Assembly (NCBI RefSeq): GCF_000971395.1
Contig: NZ_BBME01000012.1
Location: forward strand, 1 to 64,000
Source: Demequina iriomotensis
GTDB taxonomy: Bacteria; Actinomycetota; Actinomycetes; Actinomycetales; Demequinaceae
DNA length: 64,000 nucleotides
Direction of reading: 5' to 3'
The notes beneath the pieces are model-generated. The model worked only from the letters and a program-made list of their open reading frames with translations. It did not search any database and was not told where the DNA came from. Below, in pieces: positions 1,250 through 15,744 of the stretch. Each line of letters starts with the position of its first letter. Position 1 is the stretch's first letter. A program made the translations under genes and the position numbers.

Positions 1250-1810
1250 GTGAGCAGCTGGCGGGACACGCTCGAGGCGGTGATGCGCGAGCGCGGGGGC
1301 GCGCTCTTCGCGTATGCGTACGTGTTGACGGGCGACGGGGACGATGCGCAGGACCTGGTGCAGGAGGCGCTGGTGCGCGCGTTCCGACGGCGCGGCGCAC
1401 CCCAGGGCATCGACGCCGCGCATGTGTACGTGAAGCGCGCGATCCAGACCACGTTCATCGACACCCATCGACGCGCGCAGGCGCGACCCCAACGCGATCA
1501 CCGCGAGGCCGAGCGCATCGCGCCCGACCCGACCGCCGCGGCCGACACGCTGGACGCGCTCATGGACGCCGTGACCTCGCTGCCCCCGCGCGAGCGCACG
1601 TGCATCGTCATGCGCTATCTCGACGGCCTCAACGCCACCGCGATCGCGGAGGAGCTGGGGCTCGCGCCCGGATCGGTGCGCCGCTACCTGCATGACGGGA
1701 TCGCGACGCTGCGGCGCACCCACGGCGACTTCGGGCTCGATCCCTCCGATGCCGCTACGGGCGGCGGATCGTCCACGGTCATCATCACGTCGAACGGAGG
1801 CGCACGGTGA
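1250..1810 (+). CDS. SigE-family ECF sigma factor S1 (array gene 1)
   Basis: The product has 186 residues and reads as a two-domain ECF sigma factor. Region 2 spans about 16-78, with DLVQEALVRAF (35-45) and AIQTTFIDTHRR (64-75). Region 4 spans about 108-158, with LPPRERTCIVMRYLDGL followed by a helix-turn-helix AIAEELGLAPGSVRRYL. A C-terminal tail of about 28 residues (FGLDP..DA..GG..VIIT..GGAR) recurs in the other four array sigmas. The GTG start at 1250 follows a GGAGGGGG Shine-Dalgarno. Its stop overlaps the GTG of M1 as GTGA, which implies translational coupling. It should direct RNA polymerase to a private promoter set under control of M1; that partnership is inferred from gene order. 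Confidence 0.88.
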   Translation: MSSWRDTLEAVMRERGGALFAYAYVLTGDGDDAQDLVQEALVRAFRRRGAPQGIDAAHVYVKRAIQTTFIDTHRRAQARPQRDHREAERIAPDPTAAADTLDALMDAVTSLPPRERTCIVMRYLDGLNATAIAEELGLAPGSVRRYLHDGIATLRRTHGDFGLDPSDAATGGGSSTVIITSNGGAR

Positions 1811-3255
1811 GCAGCGAGCTGGAGAAGGCCATGGCGCGGCGCGCTGAGGCCGCGCATGCCGAGTACGGCGCGCGTGCGGATGCCATGATGAGCACCGCCG
1901 CACGGAAGGTGAGCCGCGCTCGGACGATGCGCACCGTGGGCACGGCGGGACTCGCGGCGCTCGTGGTCGGCGCGGTCGCGACGGTGGCGGTCGCGACGGG
2001 CGGCAGCGCCCCGGTCGCGCCGGCGAGCTCGTCACCCACGGCGACGGCGAGCGTCGCCGCGCCTGCCCATGGCGCCGCGGCGACCGCCGAGCAGCTCCTG
2101 AGCGAGTCGACCGTCGAGCAGCGGGACGCCGCGCAGATGGCGTGGCTGTGCACGCCGCTGCCCGAGCGGCGGTGCGATCAGCTCTGGATCGGCGACGCAC
2201 CGCTGGTCGAGATCGACCCGGCGCCGACCACGGTCGAGCTGGTCGAGGACGGAGCGGCCGCCGATGTGAGGTGGGGGGTGGCGAACGTGTCCGACGCCGA
2301 CCTCATGATCGTGCCATGGGCGGTTCTCCCGCTCATCGAGCCCACGGTGGACGTCGAAGAGACGGCGGCCGCGGCGCTCGCCGATCTCGCGGTCATGGGC
2401 GAGGCCCACAGCACGGTGCTCGCCGCGGGCGCGACCGAGAGCGGGACCACGCAGGTCGGGCTCGGTGCCGGCTCCGCCGTGGAGCCCGGGACGCGGGTCG
2501 GCCTGCGCGCGCTGGTGCGCGTGCCGTTCGCCGACGCGAGCGATGCGCGGGAGCTGTGGTTGCTCGCCGACGCGGGAGACGGCGCGGTCGCGGCCTTCCG
2601 CATCGATGCGACCAGCAGCGTCGACGCGCTCACGTCCGACGACCTGCGCGCCACCGCCGTCGCACGGCACCGGGAGGACTTCGACCGCGGATCGGCGCAG
2701 GCGGGCGTCGACTGCGCGCTGGAGGATCGTGCCAACCCCCGCACGGACCCGCAGGCCCAGGAGGCCATCGACCCGTTCTGCACGGCGGTCTGGCTCACCG
2801 ACGATGCGCCGCTGGTGTCCCTCGCCGACGTCACGTTCGCCGTCGACGAGGCCCACGACAACCTCACCGTCCGCTGGACGGCGAAGAACGCGGGCGAGCT
2901 CCCCCTCCAGCTCGACACCGGCGGGACCACGCTGGTGTTCGAGTGGCCGGCGGACACGGAGCCGCTCAACGACGGTGGCATCGTGTACGGCTCGGACGGG
3001 ACGGTCTTCGCGAACAGCATCTGGACCTCGGCGACCTCGCGTCACGCGGTGGTGCGCGCCGAGTCCGAGGTCGCCACCGTGATGCCCGGCATGCTCATCT
3101 CCGGTGAACGGGTGGTCCCCCTGTCCGAGATCGCGGAGCTCGGCCGGTTGCGGTTCAGCGTCCAGATCCGCGTGGCCGCCGTCGACGACGCGACCGGCGA
3201 TCGCGAGCTGTTCCTCGACATTCCGTGGAACGGCGAGATTCCCACCTCCGGATGA
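1807..3255 (+). CDS. single-pass membrane protein M1, putative sigma partner
   Basis: The 482-residue protein has a short Arg-rich cytoplasmic N-terminus (about 1-42), one transmembrane helix (about 43-64), a Ser/Thr/Pro/Ala linker and two related extracellular repeats. Each repeat begins with a two-cysteine block (Cys115/Cys123 and Cys303/Cys325, probably disulfides), continues with a VxWxxxN strand motif and ends in an REL(W/F)L segment. I recognise no named family; the beta-rich pattern suggests Ig-like domains. It starts inside the stop of S1. The position suggests a membrane-bound regulator of S1, but the HxxxCxxC anti-sigma zinc motif is absent, so the anti-sigma role is inference. Confidence 0.8.
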   Translation: MSSELEKAMARRAEAAHAEYGARADAMMSTAARKVSRARTMRTVGTAGLAALVVGAVATVAVATGGSAPVAPASSSPTATASVAAPAHGAAATAEQLLSESTVEQRDAAQMAWLCTPLPERRCDQLWIGDAPLVEIDPAPTTVELVEDGAAADVRWGVANVSDADLMIVPWAVLPLIEPTVDVEETAAAALADLAVMGEAHSTVLAAGATESGTTQVGLGAGSAVEPGTRVGLRALVRVPFADASDARELWLLADAGDGAVAAFRIDATSSVDALTSDDLRATAVARHREDFDRGSAQAGVDCALEDRANPRTDPQAQEAIDPFCTAVWLTDDAPLVSLADVTFAVDEAHDNLTVRWTAKNAGELPLQLDTGGTTLVFEWPADTEPLNDGGIVYGSDGTVFANSIWTSATSRHAVVRAESEVATVMPGMLISGERVVPLSEIAELGRLRFSVQIRVAAVDDATGDRELFLDIPWNGEIPTSG

Positions 3256-3273
3256 TGGCGGACCTCGATCGTG

Positions 3274-3286
3274 CCTGGCAGGATCG
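3274..3286 (+). promoter_or_regulatory. shared 13-bp upstream element of the sigma array (copy before S2)
   Basis: CCTGGCAGGATCG ends 24 bp before the S2 start. The identical 13-mer sits at 12086-12098 before M7, and relatives sit at 5322-5334 (before S3) and 8379-8391 (before S4), always 22-26 bp before the first start codon. TGG followed by (C/G/A)AGGAT resembles an extended -10 element. I see no good -35. Confidence 0.5.
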
Positions 3287-3309
3287 GCGACACGAGGGAC
3301 GGGGGCCCG

Positions 3310-3825
3310 ATGAGGCGATGGCAGCGCATGCTCGACGCGACCATGCAGGCGCATGGTGAGGCGCTCCTCGCGCATGCGCGCGAGCTCACCGGCGACGGCG
3401 AGCAGGCCGCCCGCCTGCTCGAGGACGCGCTGACCGCGGCGTTCTCCCGCGGCCACGTGCCCGAGCACGCGGACGCGGCGTTCGAGTCGGTGCGCAGGAC
3501 GATGCGGCACGCGGCCGTGCGCTCGGCCGTGCCTGCCGCTCCCCTGGCGCCGGCGGACGACCCGACCGAGGCATCGTCCCTCGCGCGGGCCGCGCTCGCG
3601 ACGCTGCCCGGGCGCGAGCGCGCGCTCGTGGTGCTGCGGTACGGCGCCGGGCTCGCGGTCGAGGCCATCGCGTCGGAGGTGGACCTCAAGGCCGCGGCGG
3701 TGCGTTCGGATCTCGCCCGTGCCGTCACCGCACTGCGCGAGGTCTACCCGGGCATCGGCGTGACCGTCGAGGACGCACTCGAGGGCGGCGTGCTCGAGAC
3801 CACCGCGGTGGGCGACGCACGGTGA
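3310..3825 (+). CDS. degenerate ECF sigma-like protein S2
   Basis: This 171-residue protein aligns along its length with S1, S4 and S5 but has lost key DNA-binding positions. The region 2 helix that reads YVKRAI..TFIDTHRR in S1 is here SVRRTMRHAAVRSA, without the Ile-Asp-x-His-Arg-Arg end. Region 4 keeps LPGRERALVVLRYGAGL, but its recognition helix (DLKAAAVRSDLARAV) differs. The C-terminal tail (DALEGG...VGDAR) is conserved. The ATG at 3310 follows a GAGGGACGGGGG purine tract. The stop overlaps the M2 GTG. It may be a weak sigma, a decoy or an adaptor; the frame is intact and there is no stop, so it is not an obvious pseudogene. Confidence 0.75.
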   Translation: MRRWQRMLDATMQAHGEALLAHARELTGDGEQAARLLEDALTAAFSRGHVPEHADAAFESVRRTMRHAAVRSAVPAAPLAPADDPTEASSLARAALATLPGRERALVVLRYGAGLAVEAIASEVDLKAAAVRSDLARAVTALREVYPGIGVTVEDALEGGVLETTAVGDAR

Positions 3826-5291
3826 GCGCGGCGCTCGAGCGCGCGATCGGCGCGGAGTCCGACGAGGGACGCGCGGCCGCGCCGCAGCTGCTCGACGCGG
3901 TGACGGCTCGGACCGCGACGACGGTCCATCGGCGGCGACGCATCCGCGCCGGCGGGCTCGGGGGCGGCGCACTCGCGGGGCTCGCCGCGGTCGCGGTCGC
4001 GCTGGGCGCCACGGGCCCCTCGGCGACCACCCTGCCCGCGAGCACGCCGAGCCCGACGGCGACCGCAGAGCCCGTCGCCCGCGCGGCCGGCATCCGCACC
4101 GCCGAGGAGCTGCTCGCCGAGGCCTCACCACGATTCCACGGCGCCGAGGTCGCGGGTCAGGCCGGGGTCATCTGCGCCGCGGACGCCGCACCCGAGGAGG
4201 TCGCCGAGTGCGCGGCGGTGGAGATCGACGCTCAACCGCTGCTGCGGGTCGACGAGTCGTCGTCGAGCGTCACCGCGTACATCGACGGCGATCGCGCTCG
4301 CCTGTCCGTGACGTTGGCCGTCCGCAACGCCTCGAGCCGAGGCCTGGACGCGTCCGTCGCCCTCGGTCCCGCCGCGGTCGAGCTCGCCCCGGATGCGAAG
4401 CCGGCCGGCGGACTCGAGGGCGACCGCGCCGAGTCCGCCTGGACCGGCCCGCTCACGCGCACGGCGATCGTGCCCCCGTCCGACGAGAGGTGGATGCTCG
4501 ACGGCCAGGGCTACGCGGTCACCCAGGTGACCTTCGACGCCGTCGCCCCCGAGCCCGGCGAGGAGCCCGACCCGGTGTGGGCTGTCGCGACGGGCGCCGC
4601 CGAGGCGGTCGACGCGCAGGTGACCGCGTGGCTCTCGGTCGGCTCCGCCCAGCCGGACTCCCGTCGTCAGCTGCTGCTCGAGGTGTCGATGCCGCTCGTG
4701 GTCGGAGAGGTCGGCATGGCCCCCGATGCGCTCGCGGCCACCTTCGAGCCCCGCGCCCGCGGCGACGAGGTGCCCGCGGGGTCCACCGCCGCGCTCCTGT
4801 GCGACCTGAGCGCACCCGCGTGGGCCCGACCCGCGAGCGTGTCGGGCTTCGACTACCAGAGCGTCCGGGCCTGCGAGCCCGGCACGATCGCGGGGACGCT
4901 CTTCGAGGTCCTCACCGAGGATGAGGTGTCCTCGGTCGACTCCGATACGCGCATCGTCTCCAATGTCCAGCGCGTGCCGGTGCAGGTCTACTCGTTCGCG
5001 ACCCTGATCGAGAGCGCGCCCGATGCGGAGGCCCGCGCGGAGGATCAACCGACCTGGACGGACACCGGCAGCACCGTGCTGCCCCGGAGCGCCTGGCTCG
5101 ACGACGGCTCGCGCCTCGTGGCGCTCCAGCACTGGGACGCGACGTTCGACTGGCCGGCCGACATGCACGCGTACTTCGACGCGTCCGAGGCGCGCCGGGA
5201 GGGCGGCACGGCCACCGCGCAGATCGCGCTGCCGCTGCTCGCGGATGACGACCTGCTGCTGGTGCTCGAGCTGCCGGTGCCGACGGGGTAG
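3822..5291 (+). CDS. single-pass membrane protein M2 of the sigma array
   Basis: The 489-residue protein has the array architecture: Arg-rich cytoplasmic segment (HRRRRIR at about 36-42), transmembrane helix about 43-63, a Thr/Pro/Ala linker and two extracellular repeats. Repeat A contains Cys118 and Cys130 and a VTLAVRN strand. Repeat B (after about residue 310) belongs to a second subtype that begins TAALLCDL, carries a run ending SAWLDDGSRLVALQ and finishes LLLVLELPV; the single domain of M3 and the B repeats of M4 and M7 are the same subtype. The GTG start overlaps the S2 stop as GTGA. Function unknown; a sensor or regulator for S2 is inferred. Confidence 0.78.
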   Translation: MSAALERAIGAESDEGRAAAPQLLDAVTARTATTVHRRRRIRAGGLGGGALAGLAAVAVALGATGPSATTLPASTPSPTATAEPVARAAGIRTAEELLAEASPRFHGAEVAGQAGVICAADAAPEEVAECAAVEIDAQPLLRVDESSSSVTAYIDGDRARLSVTLAVRNASSRGLDASVALGPAAVELAPDAKPAGGLEGDRAESAWTGPLTRTAIVPPSDERWMLDGQGYAVTQVTFDAVAPEPGEEPDPVWAVATGAAEAVDAQVTAWLSVGSAQPDSRRQLLLEVSMPLVVGEVGMAPDALAATFEPRARGDEVPAGSTAALLCDLSAPAWARPASVSGFDYQSVRACEPGTIAGTLFEVLTEDEVSSVDSDTRIVSNVQRVPVQVYSFATLIESAPDAEARAEDQPTWTDTGSTVLPRSAWLDDGSRLVALQHWDATFDWPADMHAYFDASEARREGGTATAQIALPLLADDDLLLVLELPVPTG

Positions 5292-5321
5292 GCGCCTCCC
5301 GCGATGCGCGCGCGCGACGCC

Positions 5322-5334
5322 GGTGGGAGGATCG
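5322..5334 (+). promoter_or_regulatory. shared upstream element of the sigma array (copy before S3)
   Basis: GGTGGGAGGATCG lies 22 bp before the S3 GTG and shares GG(N)AGGATCG with the elements before S2 and M7. It is the best promoter candidate in the 64 bp between M2 and S3. Confidence 0.4.
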
Positions 5335-5355
5335 AAGCGTCCTCGAGGGGGCGAT

Positions 5356-5880
5356 GTGAGCCGCTGGGAGAAGGTGCTCGACGCGACGATGCTCGCGCAT
5401 GGCGCGGGGCTGCTCGCGTACGCCCGCACGCTCACGGGTGACGGCGAGCTCGCGAGCACGGTGGTGGAGGACGCGCTGGCGGCGGTCTTCGGGCGCCGCG
5501 CATGCCCGCGCGACGTCGACGGCGCGCTCGCCGAGGTGCAGAGCGCGATCAGGCGGGCCGCGGTCCGGGTGGCCGCCGACGGCTCCGAGGCGGAGTCCGG
5601 CGCGCGCACCGCAAGCAGCGCCGCGCCGCGCGTCGAGGAGTCGCTCCGCGCGCTCCCGGTCCGCGAGCGCGCGCTGCTGGCGATGCGCTACATCGACGGG
5701 CTCGCCGTGCCGGCCATCTGCCGCGAGACCGCGCTGCACGCAGGCATGGTCGGGGACGCGCTCACCCACGCGGTCGAGTACCTCGACGCCGCGCACCCCG
5801 AGCTCCGGCTCGACGTGCACGATGCGCTCGCGGGGGGCGCGCTCGCGCGCGACGTGGTCACGATCGGCGACGGCTGGTGA
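5356..5880 (+). CDS. degenerate ECF sigma-like protein S3
   Basis: The product has 174 residues and is most similar to S2. Region 2.4 is again eroded: EVQSAIRRAAVRVAA replaces the YVKRAI..FIDTHRR helix of the canonical members. The region 4 core LPVRERALLAMRYIDGLAVPAICRE remains sigma-like, but the recognition helix (HAGMVGDALTHAVEYL) lacks the basic residues seen in S1. The tail DVHDALAGG...VTIGDGW matches the array tail and ends in Trp instead of Arg. The GTG start at 5356 follows a GAGGGGG Shine-Dalgarno and its stop overlaps the GTG of M3. Loss of promoter recognition is inferred, not shown. Confidence 0.73.
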   Translation: MSRWEKVLDATMLAHGAGLLAYARTLTGDGELASTVVEDALAAVFGRRACPRDVDGALAEVQSAIRRAAVRVAADGSEAESGARTASSAAPRVEESLRALPVRERALLAMRYIDGLAVPAICRETALHAGMVGDALTHAVEYLDAAHPELRLDVHDALAGGALARDVVTIGDGW

Positions 5881-6785
5881 GCGAGCCGCTCCGCGCCGCG
5901 CTCGGGGGCGACCGTGCGGCGTCGACCGCCACGACCGCCACCTCGGCCGCCGCCATCGCGCGCGGCGCACGGCGACGCATCGTCAGGACCCGGCGTCGCC
6001 GCGGCGCGATCACCGCGGCGTCGGCCGCGCTCCTGGTCACCGTCGCCGCGGCCGTCGTGACGTCGTCGCCGGGAGGGCGCGGCGCCGCACCGGACGCGGT
6101 CGCGCGCGTCGAGCGCAGCGTCCCCGCGGCCGAGCCGCGCGAGGCTGCGCTCACCGCGGACGCCCTGGTCGCCTCGTTCGAGGCCCGGACCGCGTCCTCC
6201 GAGGTCGTCGACGGCCGGCAGGCGGCGCTCCTGTGCGACCTCACGGGCACCGCCCAGGACGGGAAGGGATCCGCGTGGGGCGATGATGCCGCGTGCCGCG
6301 CCGGGTCCGTCGCGGGGCCCGTGCTCGAGGCGCGGAAGCAGGTCGCCGTGCTCGACGGGCCCCTAGGCACGCCCGATGCGGTGACGTGGGCGGTCGCCAA
6401 CGTCACCGGTGAGCGGCTCGCGACCACCGGGTGGTACCTCCTCCTCGAACGGGGCGTCGGGGACGCCGACGCCGCGGAGCCGCGCGCGAGCGTGCTCGGG
6501 AGGCTCGTGGTGGCGGATACGGCGTGGGCGGGCGAGGGCCTGCGCGGCGCGCTCATGAGGCCAGGGACGGCCACGGTCCGCCTCGAGCCGAGCATGACGC
6601 TGCTCGCCCGTGCCGAGCTCGCGCCGGACCAGCGCAGCGAGGGTCCGCCGATCCACGCGGACGGGCTGCGCCGCGCGCTCGCGGAGGGAGCCGTCGCGAC
6701 CGGCGCGGTGGTGGTGCCGTTCGAGGACGATGCCGCGCACGCCCTGGTGCTCGAGGTCCCCCTCACCGACGGGCAGGGGGCCTGA
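5877..6785 (+). CDS. single-pass membrane protein M3, one extracellular domain
   Basis: At 302 residues this is one of two short array members. It has a basic cytoplasmic segment (ARRRIVRTRRRR, about 31-42), a transmembrane helix (about 43-62) and one extracellular domain of the B subtype, with Cys120 and Cys140 and the terminal motif ALVLEVPL. It overlaps S3 at its start (GTGA) and M4 at its end (TGATG), so S3, M3 and M4 should be cotranslated. It may be the product of repeat loss, or an ancestral single-domain form. Function unknown. Confidence 0.75.
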   Translation: MSEPLRAALGGDRAASTATTATSAAAIARGARRRIVRTRRRRGAITAASAALLVTVAAAVVTSSPGGRGAAPDAVARVERSVPAAEPREAALTADALVASFEARTASSEVVDGRQAALLCDLTGTAQDGKGSAWGDDAACRAGSVAGPVLEARKQVAVLDGPLGTPDAVTWAVANVTGERLATTGWYLLLERGVGDADAAEPRASVLGRLVVADTAWAGEGLRGALMRPGTATVRLEPSMTLLARAELAPDQRSEGPPIHADGLRRALAEGAVATGAVVVPFEDDAAHALVLEVPLTDGQGA

Positions 6786-8338
6786 TGACGCCGGGGCTGG
6801 TCGAGGCCCTCGAGGCGGGCACAGCGCCCGGCCGCGAGGCCGATGATGCCGACGGGGTCGCCGAGCGTGCGCGGCGGCGCGCGCGGCGCGGACGGCGCAG
6901 CCGCACGGCAGCGTGGGCAGGTGCGGGCGTCGCCGTGGTCTGGGCGGCCGCCACGGTGCTGCCGGGCCTCGACCGCGGCGACCCGGCGCCGCCCGCGCCG
7001 GTGCAGACGGTGACCGCCACGATGTTCGCGGAGGACCTCACCGCGACCGTGGTCGAACGCGCCAGAGACGTCGCTGCGCGGGCGCCCGCGCAGCGGGCGG
7101 TGCTGTGCTCGGTGAGGGAGGGAGGAAACCCGTGGGCCGCATCGTCCGATCGCAACGATCTCCCGGTGCGTGCCACGTGCTCGGCGGCGTGGGCCGGGAG
7201 CGAGCCGCTGATCGCGATCGACCGCTCCTCCACCACGGTCACGACCTTCACGGGGGACGGCCGCGCCATCATCACCGTCGACTGGGCGGTCCGCAACCGC
7301 GGATCGGCCGCGCTCGCGCTGGACGCGGGCGGCGTGCTCGTCTCGCTCCTCACGGATCCCGGCGAGGTCACCACCGACCGCGGCTTCGATGAGGGGCGCT
7401 ACGCGGGCGGCTCGCTCTGGGCGTCCAACACGCAGCGCTACGCGACGCTCAGCGGCACCTCGCGTCCGGTGACCGTCGAGCCCGGCGAGTACGTGCAGGG
7501 CTCCACGCGGTTCATCGGCAGGGAGCCGGGGCGCGGCGAGCCGCGCGACGCGGTGTGGGACATCGCCACGGGCGCGGACGCGCCGACGGTCGGCGTGCAG
7601 GTGCGGGTGCAGCCGTTCGGGATCTCGGGCACGCGGGAGCTGTTCCTCGAGGCCGAGGCCGCCGTGCCCGAGCCGGCGGCGGGCGTGAGCGCGGACACGC
7701 TCGTCGCGGACCTCACGCCGAGGCTGCCGGGCGAGCGCCGGGACGGCGCGCAGGCGGCGCTGCTGTGCGAGGTGCCGCCGGACCTCCGGGCCGAACCGGG
7801 CGGCTCGTTCCCGTACGCCGCGGGCGAGGCGGCGTGCGAGGCGGGGTGGTTGCCTACGCGCATCGTCGCGGACGCGGGCACCCTGGGGATCACGGCGGGC
7901 GACGTCGCGCCGCTCGTCGGCTGGGGCGTGCTGACCGCGACCACGGGCTCGCTCGAGGTCGCCGGGTGGCGGCTGCTGGTCGAGCAGGCGCCGGACGACG
8001 TGCGCGATGCGGCCACGCCGCTGAGGCGGCTCGGCTCGAGCGTGGTCACGGCGCGCAACGCGTGGGCGGCGGACGGGCGCCGCATCGCGCTCCTGGACAA
8101 CGCCGACGTCGCGCGCGACATCGGTCCGGGCGAGGAGATCGGCGGTCACGACTCCCTGTTCCCCGCCATGCTCACCGACGGCGAGCCGATCGACGTCTCG
8201 AAGGTGGTCGCCGCGATTGAGGCGGGCGGCACGGTCACCGCCCAGGTCGACGTGCCGTTCCTGGGCGACCCGAGCCGCGTGCTCATCCTCGAGACTCCGC
8301 TCGCGCTCGCGGGCGCCGAGCCTGCCGCATCGCCGTAG
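6785..8338 (+). CDS. single-pass membrane protein M4, without its own sigma gene
   Basis: This 517-residue array member follows M3 directly, sharing one base in TGATG, and has no sigma gene in front of it. Layout: Arg-rich cytoplasmic region (about 28-40), transmembrane helix (about 42-60), repeat A with Cys108 and Cys132, a VDWAVRN strand and a GTRELFLEAEA end, then repeat B starting AQAALLCEV and ending RVLILETPL. M3 and M4 may form a heteromeric receptor on S3, or M4 may act with another sigma of the array. Both ideas are inference. No enzymatic motif is visible. Confidence 0.75.
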   Translation: MTPGLVEALEAGTAPGREADDADGVAERARRRARRGRRSRTAAWAGAGVAVVWAAATVLPGLDRGDPAPPAPVQTVTATMFAEDLTATVVERARDVAARAPAQRAVLCSVREGGNPWAASSDRNDLPVRATCSAAWAGSEPLIAIDRSSTTVTTFTGDGRAIITVDWAVRNRGSAALALDAGGVLVSLLTDPGEVTTDRGFDEGRYAGGSLWASNTQRYATLSGTSRPVTVEPGEYVQGSTRFIGREPGRGEPRDAVWDIATGADAPTVGVQVRVQPFGISGTRELFLEAEAAVPEPAAGVSADTLVADLTPRLPGERRDGAQAALLCEVPPDLRAEPGGSFPYAAGEAACEAGWLPTRIVADAGTLGITAGDVAPLVGWGVLTATTGSLEVAGWRLLVEQAPDDVRDAATPLRRLGSSVVTARNAWAADGRRIALLDNADVARDIGPGEEIGGHDSLFPAMLTDGEPIDVSKVVAAIEAGGTVTAQVDVPFLGDPSRVLILETPLALAGAEPAASP

Positions 8339-8378
8339 GGATCGACCCTGCGTTTCTCCCCCGCGGTGCGTCTTGTGC

Positions 8379-8391
8379 GGTGGAAGGATGC
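8379..8391 (+). promoter_or_regulatory. shared upstream element of the sigma array (copy before S4)
   Basis: GGTGGAAGGATGC ends 24 bp before the S4 GTG and is a diverged copy of the GG(N)AGGATCG element before S2, S3 and M7. The spacing is conserved more strictly than the sequence. Confidence 0.35.
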
Positions 8392-8414
8392 ACGCGACGG
8401 GATCGGGGGACGCG

Positions 8415-8972
8415 GTGAGCGCTTGGTCGGACACGCTGGATGCGCTGATGCGCGAGCGTGGCAGAGCCCTGTACGGGTACGCGTTCGTGCTGGCGGGATC
8501 CGCCGACGCGGCCGACGACCTGCTGCAGGAGGCGCTCGTCCGCGCGTTCAAGCGGGGCCGGGGTCCCGAGTCGCTCGAGGCGGCGCACGCCTACGTCAAG
8601 CGGGCGATGCAGACCGCGCTCATCGACGCCCACCGGCGCGCGAGCGCGCGTCCCCAACGCGACCACCGCGAGGCCGACCGCGTCGCGCCGGACCCGACGG
8701 GCGCATCGTCCACCCGCGACGCGCTGCTGCAGGCGGTGCAGTCGCTGCCTCCCCGCGAGCGCACCTGCGTGGTCATGCGGTACTTCGACGGGCTGTCCTC
8801 GACCGCGATCGCCGCGGACCTGGGCCTCTCGGCCGGCACGGTGCGCGGCTACCTGTCGACCGCGATCGCGACCCTCCAGCGCACGTACGGCGACTTCGGG
8901 CTCGACCCGGCGGACGCGCTGGAGGGCGGGGACGAGCACGTGGTGATCATGACGAAGGGAGGCACGCGATGA
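8415..8972 (+). CDS. SigE-family ECF sigma factor S4
   Basis: The 185-residue protein is a canonical array sigma, closest to S1. Region 2 has DDLLQEALVRAFKRG and AYVKRAMQTALIDAHRR. Region 4 has LPPRERTCVVMRYFDGLSSTAIAADL followed by GTVRGYL. The tail FGLDPADALEGG...VVIMTKGGTR is intact. The GTG at 8415 after GGGGA was chosen because it aligns with the S1 start; an in-frame ATG at 8388 would add nine residues. The stop overlaps the ATG of M5 as ATGA. It should recruit RNA polymerase to target promoters when released by its partner. Confidence 0.87.
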   Translation: MSAWSDTLDALMRERGRALYGYAFVLAGSADAADDLLQEALVRAFKRGRGPESLEAAHAYVKRAMQTALIDAHRRASARPQRDHREADRVAPDPTGASSTRDALLQAVQSLPPRERTCVVMRYFDGLSSTAIAADLGLSAGTVRGYLSTAIATLQRTYGDFGLDPADALEGGDEHVVIMTKGGTR

Positions 8973-10447
8973 GCAACGAGCTGATGGAGTCGCTCGCGCG
9001 CGGCGCCGAGGCGGGAGGCGAGCTGTTCGACGCCCGCGTCGCCGGGGTCGTCGGGCCGGCGCGGTCGCGAGTGCGGCGCGCGAGGACGATGCGCGGCGTG
9101 GGTGCCGCGGGGGTCGCCGCGATCGCGGTGGCCGGGGTGGCCATCGGCGCGTCCGCGTGGGGCGGCGACCGCACCGAGATCGCGCCCGCCGACCCGACGC
9201 CGACCGCGGCGGCCGTCACCGCCGAGGACCTGCGCTGGGACACCGCCCCGCGGGTGCGGGGCGAGGCCGGCACCGGCCAGGCCGCGCTCGTGTGCGAGTT
9301 CGACGCGGTGAGCGACAACCCGTGGGGCGAGCAGTTCGAGGGGTCCCTCGCGGACTCGTGCGGCGCGGTGTGGGTGGGCGACGCTCCCATGCTCGAGGTC
9401 AGCGCGGCGTCCGTCACCGTGGCGGGCGATGGTGCCGTCTCCGTGACGTGGCAGCTGACGAACACGACCGACGAGGCGCTGCTGGTCGACGAGGCGGGGA
9501 CGTCGCTCGCCTTCACCACCGATCCGGACGGCGAGGGGACGGGGATCGCGATGACGGACGGCGGCATCGTCGCGACGTCGCTGTGGTCGGGCGATACCGA
9601 GCGGACCGCGCACATGGAGGGAGAGTCGCGCATCGTGCGCCTCGCGCCGGGCGACTCCCTCACGGGAGCGTCGACGTTCGCGCCCGACCAGCTCGACGGT
9701 CCGGGCTTCGCCTCGCCCCTCGAGGAGCTGGCCGACGGCACGCTCGACGCGACGCTCGTCGTGCAGGTCCGCATCCCGCCCGCTGGCGCCGTGGGCACGC
9801 ACGAGCTGCTGCTCGAGGCCTCGGCGACCGTGCCCGCGACAGGCACGCTCGACCCGGTCACCCCGGCGTTCGACGGCCTCGAGGCACGCGCGCCCGGCGA
9901 GACCCGGGCCGATGCCCAGGCGGCCCTCGCGTGCCACATCGGGGATGCGGCCAACCCCCGCGTCAACGGCGCGCCCGACAACGACGGCGAGCCCGGCTGG
10001 TCCTCACCCCTGTGTCCCACCGTGTGGATCCCGGGCGGGCCGCAGATCGAGGTCACGGAGCTGAGCGCGAGCGGCGACACCGACTACCTCGACATCGCCT
10101 GGACGCTGCGCAACGTGTCGGACGGCACGCTCAGCCTCGACCGGGCGGCGATGGGCATCGCCGTCGAGATCGACGGCGCCGGCTGGATGTCGACGTCGGA
10201 GAACACCTCGGTCGGGTGGACCGGCGAGGGCGATCACTACGCCTTCCTCGCCTCCGAGACGGACGTGGTGGTGCTCCAGCCCGGCGAGACGCTCTCCGGA
10301 ATCGGCCACGCCTCGGGCAGGGAGCTCGCCGATGCCGACCGCGCGTTCATCACGATCCGGGTGGCGCGCGAGGACGACGCGAACGGCGCGCGCGAGCTGG
10401 TGCTCGAGGCGCAGTGGGACGGGCCGCCGACGCTCAGCGCCCCCTAG
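8969..10447 (+). CDS. single-pass membrane protein M5 of the sigma array
   Basis: The 492-residue protein pairs with S4 (start inside the S4 stop). Its first 42 residues resemble M1 closely (SxELxxSLARGAEAG.., RVRRARTMR), followed by a transmembrane helix at about 43-62 and two extracellular repeats with Cys109/Cys131 and Cys322/Cys349. Both repeats carry the WxLxN strand and a (R/H)EL(L/V)LEA end, so both are subtype A, as in M1. S1/M1, S4/M5 and S5/M6 thus form one subgroup with intact sigmas. A sensor and sigma-regulating role is inferred from order and topology. Confidence 0.78.
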   Translation: MSNELMESLARGAEAGGELFDARVAGVVGPARSRVRRARTMRGVGAAGVAAIAVAGVAIGASAWGGDRTEIAPADPTPTAAAVTAEDLRWDTAPRVRGEAGTGQAALVCEFDAVSDNPWGEQFEGSLADSCGAVWVGDAPMLEVSAASVTVAGDGAVSVTWQLTNTTDEALLVDEAGTSLAFTTDPDGEGTGIAMTDGGIVATSLWSGDTERTAHMEGESRIVRLAPGDSLTGASTFAPDQLDGPGFASPLEELADGTLDATLVVQVRIPPAGAVGTHELLLEASATVPATGTLDPVTPAFDGLEARAPGETRADAQAALACHIGDAANPRVNGAPDNDGEPGWSSPLCPTVWIPGGPQIEVTELSASGDTDYLDIAWTLRNVSDGTLSLDRAAMGIAVEIDGAGWMSTSENTSVGWTGEGDHYAFLASETDVVVLQPGETLSGIGHASGRELADADRAFITIRVAREDDANGARELVLEAQWDGPPTLSAP

Positions 10448-10467
10448 GACGCAGGACCCGCCGGAAA

Positions 10468-10501
10468 GCGTCCGCGCGTGCCCCATGGCGCGCGCGGACG
10501 C
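10468..10501 (+). terminator. hairpin after M5
   Basis: GCGTCCGCGCG (10468-10478) pairs perfectly with CGCGCGGACGC (10491-10501) across a 12-nt loop, 20 bp after the M5 stop. There is no U-tract. It would separate the S1-M5 block from S5/M6. Confidence 0.5.
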
Positions 10502-10547
10502 GGCACGGCCGGGCGGGCCCGTTCCCGCGCGGCACACCGCACTTTTG

Positions 10548-10576
10548 CTCCCCCGTACGTTCTCCTACGGGGGAGG
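10548..10576 (+). promoter_or_regulatory. hairpin masking the S5 ribosome binding site
   Basis: CTCCCCCGTA (10548-10557) and TACGGGGGAG (10566-10575) are perfect 10-bp inverted arms around an 8-nt loop. The right arm contains the S5 Shine-Dalgarno GGGGGAGG (10569-10576), eight bases before the ATG. In RNA the stem would hide the ribosome site; in DNA it could be a dimer operator. No other array sigma has this. Confidence 0.55.
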
Positions 10577-10583
10577 TACCACC

Positions 10584-11141
10584 ATGGCGACGTGGCCCGA
10601 GACGCTCGAAGCCCTCGTGCGGGAGCGCGGCCGAGCGCTCTTCGGGTACGCGTACCTGCTCGCGGGTGACGCGGATGTCGCGGAGGACCTGCTCCAGGAG
10701 GCGCTGGTGCGATCGTTCCGGCGCGACCGCGTCCCGGCCGGGCTCGCGGCCGCGCACGCGTACGTCAAGCGGGCCATTCAGACCGCGTTCATCGACACGC
10801 ATCGGCGCGAGGCGTCCCGACCGCGACGCGACGACCGGCAGGCGGACCTGCTCGAGCCCGACCCCGCTCAGGGGTCGGCGCTGCGCGGCGCCGTCAGGGA
10901 CGCCGTCCGCGCGCTGCCGCCACGCGAGCGGACGTGCCTGGTGATGCGCTACTACGACGGGCTCTCAGCCGCGGCGATCGCCCACGAGCTCGGTCTCGCG
11001 CCGGGCACGGTGCGCAAGTACCTGTCGCATGCCGTCGAGACGCTGCAGCGCACGTCGGGTGGCTTCGGGCTCGAGCCCGCGGACGCGACGGACGGCGGCA
11101 GCGACGCGGATGTCATCGTGATCGAAGGGGGCTCGCGATGA
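10584..11141 (+). CDS. SigE-family ECF sigma factor S5
   Basis: The 185-residue protein keeps all sigma landmarks: AEDLLQEALVRSFRRD and AYVKRAIQTAFIDTHRR in region 2, LPPRERTCLVMRYYDGLSAAAIAHEL and GTVRKYL in region 4, and the array tail FGLEPADATDGG...VIVIEGGSR. Start ATG at 10584 with a strong GGGGGAGG Shine-Dalgarno that lies inside a perfect hairpin. Unlike S2-S4 it is preceded by a longer intergenic region (136 bp) with a terminator-like stem, so it probably has its own transcription unit. Its stop overlaps the M6 ATG as ATGA. Confidence 0.87.
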   Translation: MATWPETLEALVRERGRALFGYAYLLAGDADVAEDLLQEALVRSFRRDRVPAGLAAAHAYVKRAIQTAFIDTHRREASRPRRDDRQADLLEPDPAQGSALRGAVRDAVRALPPRERTCLVMRYYDGLSAAAIAHELGLAPGTVRKYLSHAVETLQRTSGGFGLEPADATDGGSDADVIVIEGGSR

Positions 11142-12055
11142 GCGGTCCGGTGGAGCAGGTCTTCGAGGGAGAGATCGCCGAGGGCGAGGCGCTGTTCTCC
11201 TCGCGCGCCGCGTTCGTGGTCCCTCCCGTCATGCACCGAGTGAGGCGATCGCGCCGACGCCGCGCGGCGGGCATCGCCGTGGGTGCCCTCGCGACCGTCG
11301 GGGCGGTCGGCGTGGCGATCGCGCAGGTCCCCTCCGACGGGGTCGCGCCCGCACCTGCGGCACCCGCCCCCACGGCGTCGCCCGTGTCGGTCGCCACCGC
11401 CCCCACGACGCTCATCGGCCCGCCCACCGTGGAGGCCGCGGCCGAGCCGCGGACCTTCCATGACGCTCCTGACGGGCGGCAGGCGGGATTCCTGTGCGAC
11501 GTCGACGCGGAGGAGAACGTCGCGTTCGAGGGAGCCAACGTGGGCGCGTACGGCCTGAACTACTGGGTCTGCGACGCCGTGTGGCTCGAGGAGGGACCCG
11601 TGCTCGAACGCACCGGGCTCGTCGCGGCTCATGATGCCGCCTCGGGCAACCTCGACGTGACCTGGGAGGTCCGCAACTCCGGTGACGTCCCGGTCACGGT
11701 GGACCGTGCCGGCGCCGTGGTGAACGTGCAGACCGCGGCCGAGCCCGGCCCCGGCGCCCACTGGGCGTATGTGGGCTTCCCCGACACCGGGATCATGATG
11801 GGCGCGAGCCTGTGGAAGTCGGACTCGGTGCGGATGCTGGGGCTCGCGCACGTCTCCGCGCTCACGACCCTCGACCCCGGCGACACGATGCGCGGCACCG
11901 TCACCGTGAAGCAGCGCTGGGAGCCCAAGCAGGATCTCGACCGCGCGGACCTGCGGCTCACGGTGCCCATGGTGGCGACCACGGGCGACGGCTCGACCCT
12001 CGTGGTGCTCGAGGTGCCGTTGCGCGACACGTGGACCGGCGCCGCGACGCCGTAG
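11138..12055 (+). CDS. single-pass membrane protein M6, one extracellular domain
   Basis: This 305-residue protein is coupled to S5. The cytoplasmic segment ends in HRVRRSRRRR, the transmembrane helix is about 43-62 and a Pro/Ala linker leads to one extracellular domain of subtype A with Cys120 and Cys145, the strand VTWEVRNSG and the end VVLEVPL. As the only single-domain member with an intact sigma partner, S5/M6 is the simplest pair in the array. Function unknown beyond the inferred sigma partnership. Confidence 0.77.
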   Translation: MSGPVEQVFEGEIAEGEALFSSRAAFVVPPVMHRVRRSRRRRAAGIAVGALATVGAVGVAIAQVPSDGVAPAPAAPAPTASPVSVATAPTTLIGPPTVEAAAEPRTFHDAPDGRQAGFLCDVDAEENVAFEGANVGAYGLNYWVCDAVWLEEGPVLERTGLVAAHDAASGNLDVTWEVRNSGDVPVTVDRAGAVVNVQTAAEPGPGAHWAYVGFPDTGIMMGASLWKSDSVRMLGLAHVSALTTLDPGDTMRGTVTVKQRWEPKQDLDRADLRLTVPMVATTGDGSTLVVLEVPLRDTWTGAATP

Positions 12056-12085
12056 CCGCCGCGTTCCCGCGTCGGGCCCGTCGCA

Positions 12086-12098
12086 CCTGGCAGGATCG
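12086..12098 (+). promoter_or_regulatory. shared 13-bp upstream element (copy before M7)
   Basis: CCTGGCAGGATCG is identical to the element 24 bp before S2. Here it ends 26 bp before the ATG of a seven-codon ORF (12124-12147) rather than before a sigma gene, consistent with a sigma gene having been deleted between promoter and M7. Confidence 0.5.
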
Positions 12099-12123
12099 AT
12101 CGCACACGACCGCCGGGGGGACG

Positions 12124-12147
12124 ATGCACGCGAGGACCACGCGATGA
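12124..12147 (+). pseudogene. seven-codon ORF, possible scar of a deleted sigma gene before M7
   Basis: ATGCACGCG at 12124 opens an ORF encoding MHARTTR whose TGA overlaps the M7 ATG as ATGA, exactly as full sigma genes overlap their membrane partners. Its first codons match the ATGCACGCG at 8388 upstream of S4, and its last bases (CACGCGATGAGC) match the S4/M5 junction. It follows GGGGGGA as a ribosome site. The simplest reading is an in-frame internal deletion of a sigma gene that preserved translational coupling of M7. Confidence 0.5.
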
Positions 12148-13652
12148 GCGCCCCGCTCGTGCGCGCGCTCGGGGCCGAGGACGATGCGGGTGCCCAGGAG
12201 TCGCTGGGCGGGCTCGCCACGCGCGCGGCCGCGCGGGTGCGCTCGCGACGTCGCCGGCGGCTCGGCGCGTCCGCCGCCGGGGGCATCGGCGTGCTGGCGG
12301 TCGCCGCGCTCGCCGTGAGCGCCGCGCGGGTGCCCGGCACCGACACACCGGCGCCTGCCGCGCCCTCGCCCTCCGCGACCGAGGCGCAGTACATCCCCAG
12401 CACGCATGCGGGTCCGTTGTCCGCGGCCTCGCTCATCGCGAGCGCGACGCCGCGGCACGCGGGCGAGAGCGGCGACCGCCAGGAGGCGCTCGTGTGCGAC
12501 GCGTCCCAGGCCACGGGCGCCCTGGTCGACTGCGCGGCCGTATGGGTCGGCGACCGGCGGCTGGTCGGGATCGACCCCATGTCGCAGGTGACCGCCTTCG
12601 TGGGCGCGGAGCGGGCGCGGCTCGACTTCGACGTGACCTTCGCCGCGACCGGCGGCGTGCCGGTGCAGATCACGTGGGGAAGCGGGCTCACCGCGCTCCT
12701 CAGCGACCCGGACGCGCCGCAGGGCGAGGGCGCGGCGCACGACTTCCTCCAGTACGACGGCACGTCGCTGTGGGTCGAAGGCTCGCGACGCACGGCGTTG
12801 CTGGAGCCCTCCGAGGATCCGGGGATGACCGTCGAGCCCGGCACCTCGCTCGGGACGGGCTTCACCTTCGCCGCTGAGGCGCCGGCGCCCGGCGCGGAGG
12901 CCTCGCCGACGTGGGCGATCGCGCACGGCGCCGCCTCCGGCGCGATCACGTTCCAGATGCGCGTGCCCGGCGCGTCCGAGGACGGGTTCAGCGTGCTGCT
13001 GCTCGAGGTCACCATGCCGATCGCGACCCCGAGGCCCGGGCTCACCGCAGACGCGTTGGCCACCGGCTTCGTGCCCCGGGCGCGGAGCGAGGCTCCGCGC
13101 GACGATGCGCAGGCGGCGCTGCTGTGCACCATCCCGCGACGCGTCCTCCACGGGAGTGCGTGGTCGGCCGTGGTCGCCTGCGACGCGGGGTGGGTCGACG
13201 GCGCGCTGGTCTCGGGAGCCGGCGCCGGCGCCGTCGGCGAGGGCACGTACGGGCCGACGTTCGAGTGGGCTGTCGACGCGGTCGCCGACCGCCCGATCCT
13301 CGCCGACCACCCCCGCCTGCTGATCGAGGGCGACGTCGGCGCGCAGGCGGCTCCGCGGGACACGCTCGCGCTCACCGGCTACGACGACCTGGTGACCGAG
13401 GGCACCGCATGGCTTCCCGACGGCCGCCGTGCGGCCGTCGTGTTCGGCTATGACGGCGGCTATCCCCTGGGCCCCGGGACGCAGGGCGGCTACTCGGAGC
13501 TCACGCCCGGACCCCTGTGGGCGAGCCACCCGATCGACCTCGACGCGCTCGCCACGTCCATCGGCGGCACGGGCGCCGCGACCGCGAGGGTGTCGATGCC
13601 GTTCGTCGACGACCCGTCCCGCGTGCTGATCCTCGAGGCGCCGCTCGACTAG
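12144..13652 (+). CDS. single-pass membrane protein M7, orphan last member of the array
   Basis: The 502-residue protein has the array layout: RVRSRRRRR basic stretch (about 31-39), transmembrane helix about 41-60, repeat A with Cys118/Cys130 and the CAAVWVGD block, and repeat B of the second subtype ending RVLILEAPL. It has no sigma gene in front, only the seven-codon ORF whose stop overlaps its ATG. Its TAG stop is shared with the CTAG of the convergent metallopeptidase gene (4-bp overlap, 13649-13652). It may cross-talk with another array sigma; function unknown. Confidence 0.75.
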   Translation: MSAPLVRALGAEDDAGAQESLGGLATRAAARVRSRRRRRLGASAAGGIGVLAVAALAVSAARVPGTDTPAPAAPSPSATEAQYIPSTHAGPLSAASLIASATPRHAGESGDRQEALVCDASQATGALVDCAAVWVGDRRLVGIDPMSQVTAFVGAERARLDFDVTFAATGGVPVQITWGSGLTALLSDPDAPQGEGAAHDFLQYDGTSLWVEGSRRTALLEPSEDPGMTVEPGTSLGTGFTFAAEAPAPGAEASPTWAIAHGAASGAITFQMRVPGASEDGFSVLLLEVTMPIATPRPGLTADALATGFVPRARSEAPRDDAQAALLCTIPRRVLHGSAWSAVVACDAGWVDGALVSGAGAGAVGEGTYGPTFEWAVDAVADRPILADHPRLLIEGDVGAQAAPRDTLALTGYDDLVTEGTAWLPDGRRAAVVFGYDGGYPLGPGTQGGYSELTPGPLWASHPIDLDALATSIGGTGAATARVSMPFVDDPSRVLILEAPLD

Positions 13653-15372: not shown

Positions 15373-15744
15373 CTAGCCCCGCGGGACCAGCGGGAGCCGC
15401 GCGGCGATGTCGGCGACCGCGTCGAGGGTGCCGTCGGCGATCGCCCACACCAAGTCGAACGCCTGGGCTTGGCTCAGCTGGACGCGCTGTCCGTTGAACC
15501 CGATGAATACGACCGTCGCGAGCCATCCGAGACGCTTGTTTCCGTCCGCCAATGCGTGGTTCTTCACGATCGAGTGCAGGAGGGCCGCGGCCTTGAGCTC
15601 AAGCGATGGGTATGCGTCGACGCCCATCAGCGTTGTCGCGGGTCGCGCAAGCGCGGATTCGAGCAGTCCCGCGTCCCGCACCGGGCCGAGTCCCGCGAGG
15701 CGCCCCATCTCGAGGAGCTCATCGAGCTCGATGTAGCCGGTCAC
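15373..15744 (-). CDS. Doc-family (Fic fold) toxin
   Basis: The 123-residue protein has the Doc signature HALADGNKR at 63-71 (Fic core HxFx(D/E)GNxR with Ala in place of Phe). Doc proteins phosphorylate EF-Tu and stop translation. The GTG start at 15744 lies 3 bp after the stop of the small RHH gene, the usual antitoxin-then-toxin order. Its stop overlaps the -10 of the downstream aminotransferase gene. The family call is firm; toxicity is inferred from pairing and motif. Confidence 0.82.
   Translation of the reverse strand: MTGYIELDELLEMGRLAGLGPVRDAGLLESALARPATTLMGVDAYPSLELKAAALLHSIVKNHALADGNKRLGWLATVVFIGFNGQRVQLSQAQAFDLVWAIADGTLDAVADIAARLPLVPRG

Follow-up and report, generated by a model that had tools for sequence, protein, structure and literature searches.

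Introduction

The SigI/RsgI systems of cellulolytic clostridia are expanded, autoregulated sets of paralogous sigma/membrane anti-sigma pairs whose sensory modules lie outside the cell; C. thermocellum has eight SigI/RsgI and P. cellulosolvens 16 SigI (PMC6056542). The locus described here, a tandem array of sigma-like and membrane genes in a 64,000-nucleotide stretch of Demequina iriomotensis DNA (the window), resembles them in these respects. It belongs to another sigma family and another phylum, and RsgI, unlike the membrane proteins of the array, is a recognised anti-sigma family. Degenerate sigmas, present in the array, are not mentioned in the passages on these clostridial sets.

The SigE-family sigmas of Actinomycetota (TIGR02983), with the single-pass membrane gene downstream of them, have in common with the array the best-scoring sigma model (although the window sigmas stay under its curated cut-off), a 4-bp overlap of the paired genes, a short basic cytosolic tail, a transmembrane (TM) helix at about residues 40–60 and a CAAC...CGT-type promoter. 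Across the order, the 4-bp overlap was found at 22 of 30 SigE-family loci and an N-terminal TM helix at 24 of 30; the membrane partners examined fell into no Pfam family. Up to 32 strong SigE-family matches occur in a single actinobacterial genome. A sigma gene with an overlapping membrane partner is the ordinary layout of this family; the array is unusual in being expanded, in its ectodomain and in its degenerate sigmas. SigE-family pairs in the other genera sampled were single, whereas the array strings together as many as five sigmas and seven paralogous sensors, the sigmas in part degenerate and the sensors with an ectodomain specific to the genus. The premise of an earlier note on this DNA, that sigma/anti-sigma pairs are usually single, holds for these SigE-family pairs but not for the expanded SigI/RsgI sets.

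Two further systems bear on the parts of the array. In PhyR, a sigma-like fold binds an anti-sigma factor instead of transcribing. In CnrY-type (class II) anti-sigma proteins the cytosolic segment, two helices that wrap the sigma ahead of a TM helix, is shorter than 50 residues, which leaves no room for a class I domain (PMC7406223); the likeness of the array's tails to it is one of length, and the ectodomains are unrelated as far as compared.

Array layout and distribution

The array occupies positions 1250–13652, adjoins an rRNA operon and consists, as first described, of five SigE-family sigma-like genes (S1–S5) and seven paralogous single-pass membrane genes (M1–M7), head to tail and all on the + strand. 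S1 (1250–1810; canonical, 186 aa) is followed by M1 (1807–3255), S2 (3310–3825; degenerate, 171 aa) by M2 (3822–5291) and S3 (5356–5880; degenerate, 174 aa) by M3 (5877–6785). M4 (6785–8338) lacks a sigma partner, and its first base is the last one of M3. Then come S4 (8415–8972; canonical, 185 aa) with M5 (8969–10447), S5 (10584–11141; canonical, 185 aa) with M6 (11138–12055), and the sigma-less unit M7 (12144–13652). The proposed 4-bp start/stop overlap is exact (RTGA) in S1/M1, S2/M2, S3/M3, S4/M5 and S5/M6. The pairing is conserved elsewhere: the same overlap occurs in 43 of 43 assigned S/M pairs across Demequina when an in-frame RTGA start, where one exists, is taken as the gene start.

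The array occurs in 19 of 44 Demequina genomes, with one to seven membrane genes each. S4 belongs to the most conserved and most widespread unit in the genus, and S5 is missing from the arrays of the two nearest relatives. Outside the genus, the array ectodomain was searched for in two sets of 396 genomes, one from the order and one from the phylum; both yielded partial matches only (E 6e-4 to 9e-4), which we took as chance; within this search the array is specific to Demequina.

Canonical sigma factors

Homology to the SigE family extends to all of S1–S5. TIGR02983 is the best NCBIfam model for each (E 8e-12 to 3e-34), with bit scores of 45–118 that all lie under the curated cut-off of 141.55. 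S1, S4 and S5 match Sigma70_r2 and Sigma70_r4 above cut-off and carry D35, Q38, Y60, D71, R74 and R75; by sequence they have both regions and the core-binding and -10-recognition residues of a functional ECF sigma. The six residues are invariant in 28 canonical sigmas, bar one Phe at position 60. The solved structure nearest in sequence to S4 is M. tuberculosis SigL (6dv9, E 3e-13), whose Trp68 contacts the flipped -11 base (PMC6372665). The corresponding residue is Tyr60 in S4, whereas S2 and S3 have Ser or Glu there.

A bipartite promoter-like motif, [AC]CCC(AA/TG)C-N15-TGCGT, lies upstream of canonical sigma genes and has 5–8 exact matches per genome. In the window it takes the form ACCCAAC-N15-TGCGTT upstream of S1 (1198–1225, +), which is one of 5 genome-wide matches and stands in the same place in orthologues, and ACCCTGC-N15-TGCGTC upstream of S4 (8345–8372, +). 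S5 has a diverged promoter-like sequence only, with no exact match to the motif. As expected for ECF sigmas, this arrangement would fit autoregulation. We also considered protease sensing through a serpin regulon. A similar promoter-like motif does stand at serpin and lipoprotein genes, but array-less Demequina have it there too, so that it has no specific tie to the array, and the idea was dropped.

Degenerate sigma-like proteins

S2 and S3 fall into a degenerate class that makes up 21 of the 49 aligned sigmas. Neither has a Sigma70_r2 match in the Pfam scan; the region-2 functional residues are missing and the linker is shortened. An 8-residue deletion in region 2.4, suggested by a small alignment, resolved in a larger one into a motif substitution and the shorter linker. 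With the core-binding and -10-recognition residues lost, S2 and S3 probably do not direct transcription. The five ECF sigma-like genes of the earlier note thus stand as homologues, but two of them are degenerate and unlikely to encode transcription factors.

The changes follow a pattern. D35, Q38, Y60, D71, R74 and R75 are mostly lost across the 21 degenerate sigmas, with Q38 replaced by E in 20/21 and D71 by R in 17/21; A40, R122, L147 and a GG in the tail are kept in 21/21. The predicted model of S3 retains the sigma2–sigma4 fold, with the helices of both regions, and its fold-search matches include PhyR structures. S2 and S3 differ from PhyR in being too short for a receiver domain, and the NCBIfam PhyR match is weak (E ~1e-3).

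The autoregulatory-type motif is absent upstream of the degenerate sigma genes. By inspection, an extended -10-like element, TGGCAGGAT, lies upstream of S2 (3276–3284, +) and another, TGGGAGGAT, upstream of S3 (5324–5332, +), and similar forms occur in other degenerate units. TGGCAGGAT is found again upstream of M7 (12088–12096, +), inside a stretch that resembles the S2 upstream region with a score reached by 0 of 200 shuffles. The M7 start is coupled not to a sigma but to a leader ORF of seven codons (MHARTTR, then stop; 12124–12147, +), with a 4-bp ATGA overlap. This ORF is likely the remnant of a deleted degenerate sigma.

Such a remnant would be at home in an array under birth-and-death turnover, in which units multiply by duplication and functions are lost, S2 and S3 being decaying duplicates with no role. 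The number of units does differ between Demequina genomes, and the degenerate sigmas evolve faster than the canonical ones (60–61% against 84–89% identity, window versus locus L060). We nevertheless think this reading unlikely, as every one of the 21 degenerate ORFs is intact, overlaps an M gene in a coupled pair and bears the coherent signature above, and dN/dS of the class in close-species comparisons is 0.23–0.40 (0.23 for S2), not near 1. The degenerate sigmas appear to have lost the residues needed for transcription, yet the fold is kept in the S3 model, and by its dN/dS values the class is under purifying selection.

Membrane proteins

All-by-all BLASTP with single linkage joins the seven M proteins into one family, so that the earlier claim of paralogy stands. 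E values include 8e-42 for M4–M7, 7e-33 for M4–M5, 1e-28 for M1–M5 and 6e-26 for M2–M7; M6 joins at 1e-9, and some direct pairs fall below significance despite the common family. Each protein has one clear TM helix at residues 40–63, flanked on the cytosolic side by a strongly basic stretch; the first cysteine comes at 108–120, in close agreement with the helix (about 42–62) and cysteine positions noted before. The cytosolic segment before the helix is 39–44 residues long, within the class II length of less than 50. Class I features are lacking: neither Pfam (seven M proteins) nor NCBIfam (four) recognises an anti-sigma domain, and since no cysteine precedes residue 108 the tails have no zinc-type anti-sigma motif.

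M3 and M6 carry one ectodomain copy and M1, M2, M4, M5 and M7 two, the first copy of M1 being diverged. There are exactly two cysteines per copy in the window, and they are invariant across 38 aligned copies. Copy 1 of M5 (9212–9844) gave a predicted structure with a mean pLDDT of 92; in this confident model the ectodomain is an Ig-like beta-sandwich that holds the two invariant cysteines. The earlier description of one or two copies of a domain that fits no family also held: searches of Pfam with seven M proteins, of NCBIfam with four and of the PDB by sequence profile returned nothing specific, and a Pfam scan of the 38 copies gave none above a curated cut-off (best E 0.02, DUF4232, in one member). 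Foldseek/VIA-align matches were generic beta-sandwiches only (FlaF/FlaG, BsuPI inhibitor, GH2/GH3 modules; best Z 6.4), and we claim no relationship from them.

The cytosolic tail is linked to sigma genes beyond the arrays. When a tail profile was searched outside arrays, with sigma presence not a criterion, the tail stood directly behind a SigE-type sigma ORF at all loci that showed it again, and the matches carried other, unrelated ectodomains. A pair next to the array likewise has a different ectodomain, of the YceG/MltG kind (E 3e-34). Judged from these loci, the ~40-residue tail with its helix is a portable sigma-linked module with swapped ectodomains. Sigma divergence follows tail divergence (Mantel r 0.77) more closely than ectodomain divergence (0.61), either value being reached by 0 of 2000 within-locus shuffles, a covariation that reflects in part the common ancestry of linked genes. 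Furthermore, at locus L073 a natural fusion joins a sigma2-like segment to tail, TM helix and ectodomain.

These results bear on whether the membrane proteins are anti-sigma sensors at all. They could be positive partners of the sigmas, or structural proteins of the envelope that have nothing but an operon in common with a sigma; the Pfam and NCBIfam scans above recognise no anti-sigma domain in them, and M4 and M7 lack a sigma. Linkage of the tail to sigmas across loci, whatever the ectodomain, together with the tighter sigma–tail than sigma–ectodomain covariation, makes this decidedly improbable.

Proposed mechanism

We consider it likely that the array consists of tandemly expanded SigE-type ECF sigma/membrane anti-sigma-like sensor pairs, with S2 and S3 as a derived class of sigma-derived accessory proteins. 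The idea of a paralogous sensor set with diversified ectodomains is supported by the expanded sensor-like paralogues, each coupled to a sigma gene in the paired units, the fast-diverging ectodomains and the arrays in other genomes. Against sigma/anti-sigma pairs speak the lack of an anti-sigma domain recognised in the scans, the missing sigmas of M4 and M7 and the merely diverged promoter-like sequence of S5. The envelope or competitor signals of the earlier note are a conjecture; the sole hints at them are the YceG/MltG ectodomain next door and the related promoters of the lipoprotein and serpin genes, and the latter occur in array-less species too.

In S1/M1, S4/M5 and S5/M6, the membrane protein would most likely keep the sigma inactive through its ~40-residue basic cytosolic tail. 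The putative trigger lies in the Ig-like ectodomain with its two cysteines: a change there would free the sigma, probably by way of intramembrane proteolysis or a conformational switch. The genome does encode M50 proteases. The freed sigma would then transcribe its own operon and other genes, and translational coupling would hold sigma and sensor in step. In the S2 and S3 units a sigma scaffold, its fold kept and paired with an M protein, may act on or with the membrane tails as an adaptor or decoy. We suggest tentatively, as a possibility somewhat short of an even chance, that the degenerate sigmas are selected, non-transcribing sensor partners. In competition with true sigmas for the anti-sigma tails, they would determine the threshold of the expanded array or cross-wire it. 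That they are instead half of a split sigma, with region 4 on the -35 element and region 2 from another protein as in the two-part SigO/RsoA type, is very improbable: S2 region 4 does score (Sigma70_r4_2, E 5e-9) where its region 2 does not, but S3 region 4 lies under the Pfam cut-off, its 4.2 segment has lost its former net positive charge, and the window array contains no lone region-2 partner.

A set of conserved sigma-like proteins for which transcription seems to have been abandoned suggests a new regulatory role, and a series of arrays with one to seven sensors is natural material for asking how paralogous sigma/sensor pairs stay separate.

Tandem sigma/membrane protein pairs in Demequina

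The tandem array of sigma-like and paralogous single-pass membrane genes described in the earlier note is real: twelve plus-strand genes run from 1250 to 13652 in the order S1-M1-S2-M2-S3-M3-M4-S4-M5-S5-M6-M7 (S, SigE-family sigma-like; M, membrane protein), and BLASTP joins all seven M proteins. In five S/M pairs the two genes share a 4-bp overlap. Each of the seven M proteins combines a basic cytosolic tail of 39–44 residues with a single TM helix at 40–63 and an ectodomain in which a ~200-residue module occurs once or twice. Two cysteines are invariant across 38 ectodomain copies, and an AlphaFold2 model shows a beta-sandwich (mean pLDDT 92, pTM 0.90), for which fold comparison returned generic Ig-like matches only. 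We found no applicable Pfam family, and no convincing match outside Demequina in 396 genomes of the order (109 genera) or 396 genomes of the phylum (237 genera). Divergence of the ectodomain between species is fast: between the window and L060, a D. gelatinilytica locus, the M1 ectodomain is 47% identical vs 84% for S1.

The M family is present in 19/44 Demequina genomes, the smallest set being one unit with one ectodomain copy and the largest the window's seven. Its array-bearing relatives, on contigs of D. gelatinilytica, D. subtropica and D. phytophila, place the window in Demequina (Micrococcales). The array flanks are conserved, with a hydrolase gene on one side; on the other, several relatives have a peptidase of YgjP type, another sigma pair and ilvE. 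In L060 (11155-12683) a SigE-type sigma and a membrane protein with a YceG/MltG-like ectodomain lie between peptidase and ilvE; this pair is missing at the corresponding place in the window genome, where ilvE directly follows the peptidase. Beside ilvE the window also carries a small Fic/Doc-like ORF with an HxxADGNKR motif (15373-15744, minus strand; from translation only). In G026, the one complete array genome examined, an rRNA operon (L075:4301-9528) adjoins the array, which is why the contigs of draft assemblies, that of the window among them, break off ~1.2 kb upstream of S1. S1 to M5 are common to the window and its two nearest relatives, while S5-M6-M7 are extra in the window. The first membrane gene of another locus (L068, reverse strand 4752-6256) is split across two overlapping frames, by a frameshift or an assembly error.

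When weak tail-only matches to the M profile from other parts of these genomes were fetched irrespective of their neighbours, a SigE-type sigma ORF lay directly ahead of the tail in every locus where it was re-found, and the ectodomains differed among these loci. The partner of S6, a relative of the array sigmas, has a YceG/MltG ectodomain (E 3e-34). Among 30 SigE-family loci in other families of the order, the sigma gene overlaps its downstream neighbour by 4 bp in 22 and the partner has an N-terminal TM in 24; the sigma/membrane pair is therefore ordinary, and the array is a conserved, genus-specific expansion of this known kind of pair. Sigma-sigma distances correlate more strongly with tail distances (r 0.77) than with ectodomain distances (0.61). 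Most likely, the tails in S1/M1, S4/M5 and S5/M6 would sequester their sigmas as anti-sigmas, and an ectodomain signal would release them. M50 proteases, which could serve intramembrane cleavage, are present; as they are universal, this is weak support.

A selected class of degenerate sigmas

The most interesting part of the array is a selected class of degenerate sigmas (S2 and S3 in the window), defined by absence of the region 2.4 motif [IV]D..R, which is missing from 21/49 sequences from 15 loci. Positions outside this definition separate the classes just as cleanly: D35 is found in 28/28 canonical and 3/21 degenerate sequences, Q38 in 28/28 and 0/21 (Glu in 20 degenerate), and an aromatic residue 60 in 28/28 and 0/21. 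Residue 60 aligns with Trp68 of M. tuberculosis SigL, which touches the flipped -11 base (PMC6372665). The region 2-4 linker spans 32–38 residues in canonical sigmas and 9–31 in 19/21 degenerate ones. All 21 degenerate sigmas retain A40, R122, L147 and the C-terminal GG. Between close species dN/dS is 0.23–0.40 for degenerate vs 0.04–0.14 for canonical sigmas, these being simple Nei-Gojobori estimates at high GC in which the contrast between classes is what counts. An S3 model, whose input alignment included canonical rows, retains the sigma2 and sigma4 helices (mean pLDDT 84); its top fold matches, with modest scores, are PhyR and sigma factors, several of the latter from structures with an anti-sigma bound. 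The degenerate sigmas fit sigma-derived proteins still working with membrane tails, not promoters, a role that we infer. The region ahead of M7 resembles the S2 upstream region (0/200 shuffles); at its end lies an ORF of seven codons that overlaps M7, which would fit the deletion of a degenerate sigma from this unit. Elsewhere, a 375-residue ORF (L073, reverse strand 5817-6944) fuses a sigma2-like segment to a tail, TM and array-type ectodomain.

Promoter motifs

The motif [AC]CCC(AA/TG)C-N15-TGCGT lies upstream of S1-, S4- and S6-type canonical genes in a register conserved across species, the variants being CCCCAC in two S4-type genes and TACGT in one; S5 has it in diverged form only. The motif is absent upstream of degenerate units, which on inspection appear to carry an extended -10-like TGN-NANNNT sequence instead. 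Exact genome-wide searches of six genomes gave 4–8 matches each vs 1–5 for a reversed control pattern; a large share of the matches belongs to the array, to S6 and to a further SigE-type sigma gene. The genome-wide matches also recur at a small lipoprotein and, in some species, at a lipoprotein serpin, and in many cases the start codon follows 8 nt past the motif. Further SigE-type sigmas of Demequina have related CAAC...CGT sequences. In many Demequina species (L184-L195) a conserved promoter-like motif precedes the start codon of a ~157-aa lipoprotein by exactly 8 nt, a spacing that suggests leaderless transcription by a SigE-type sigma. Species without the array share the lipoprotein promoter, so this promoter class predates the array.
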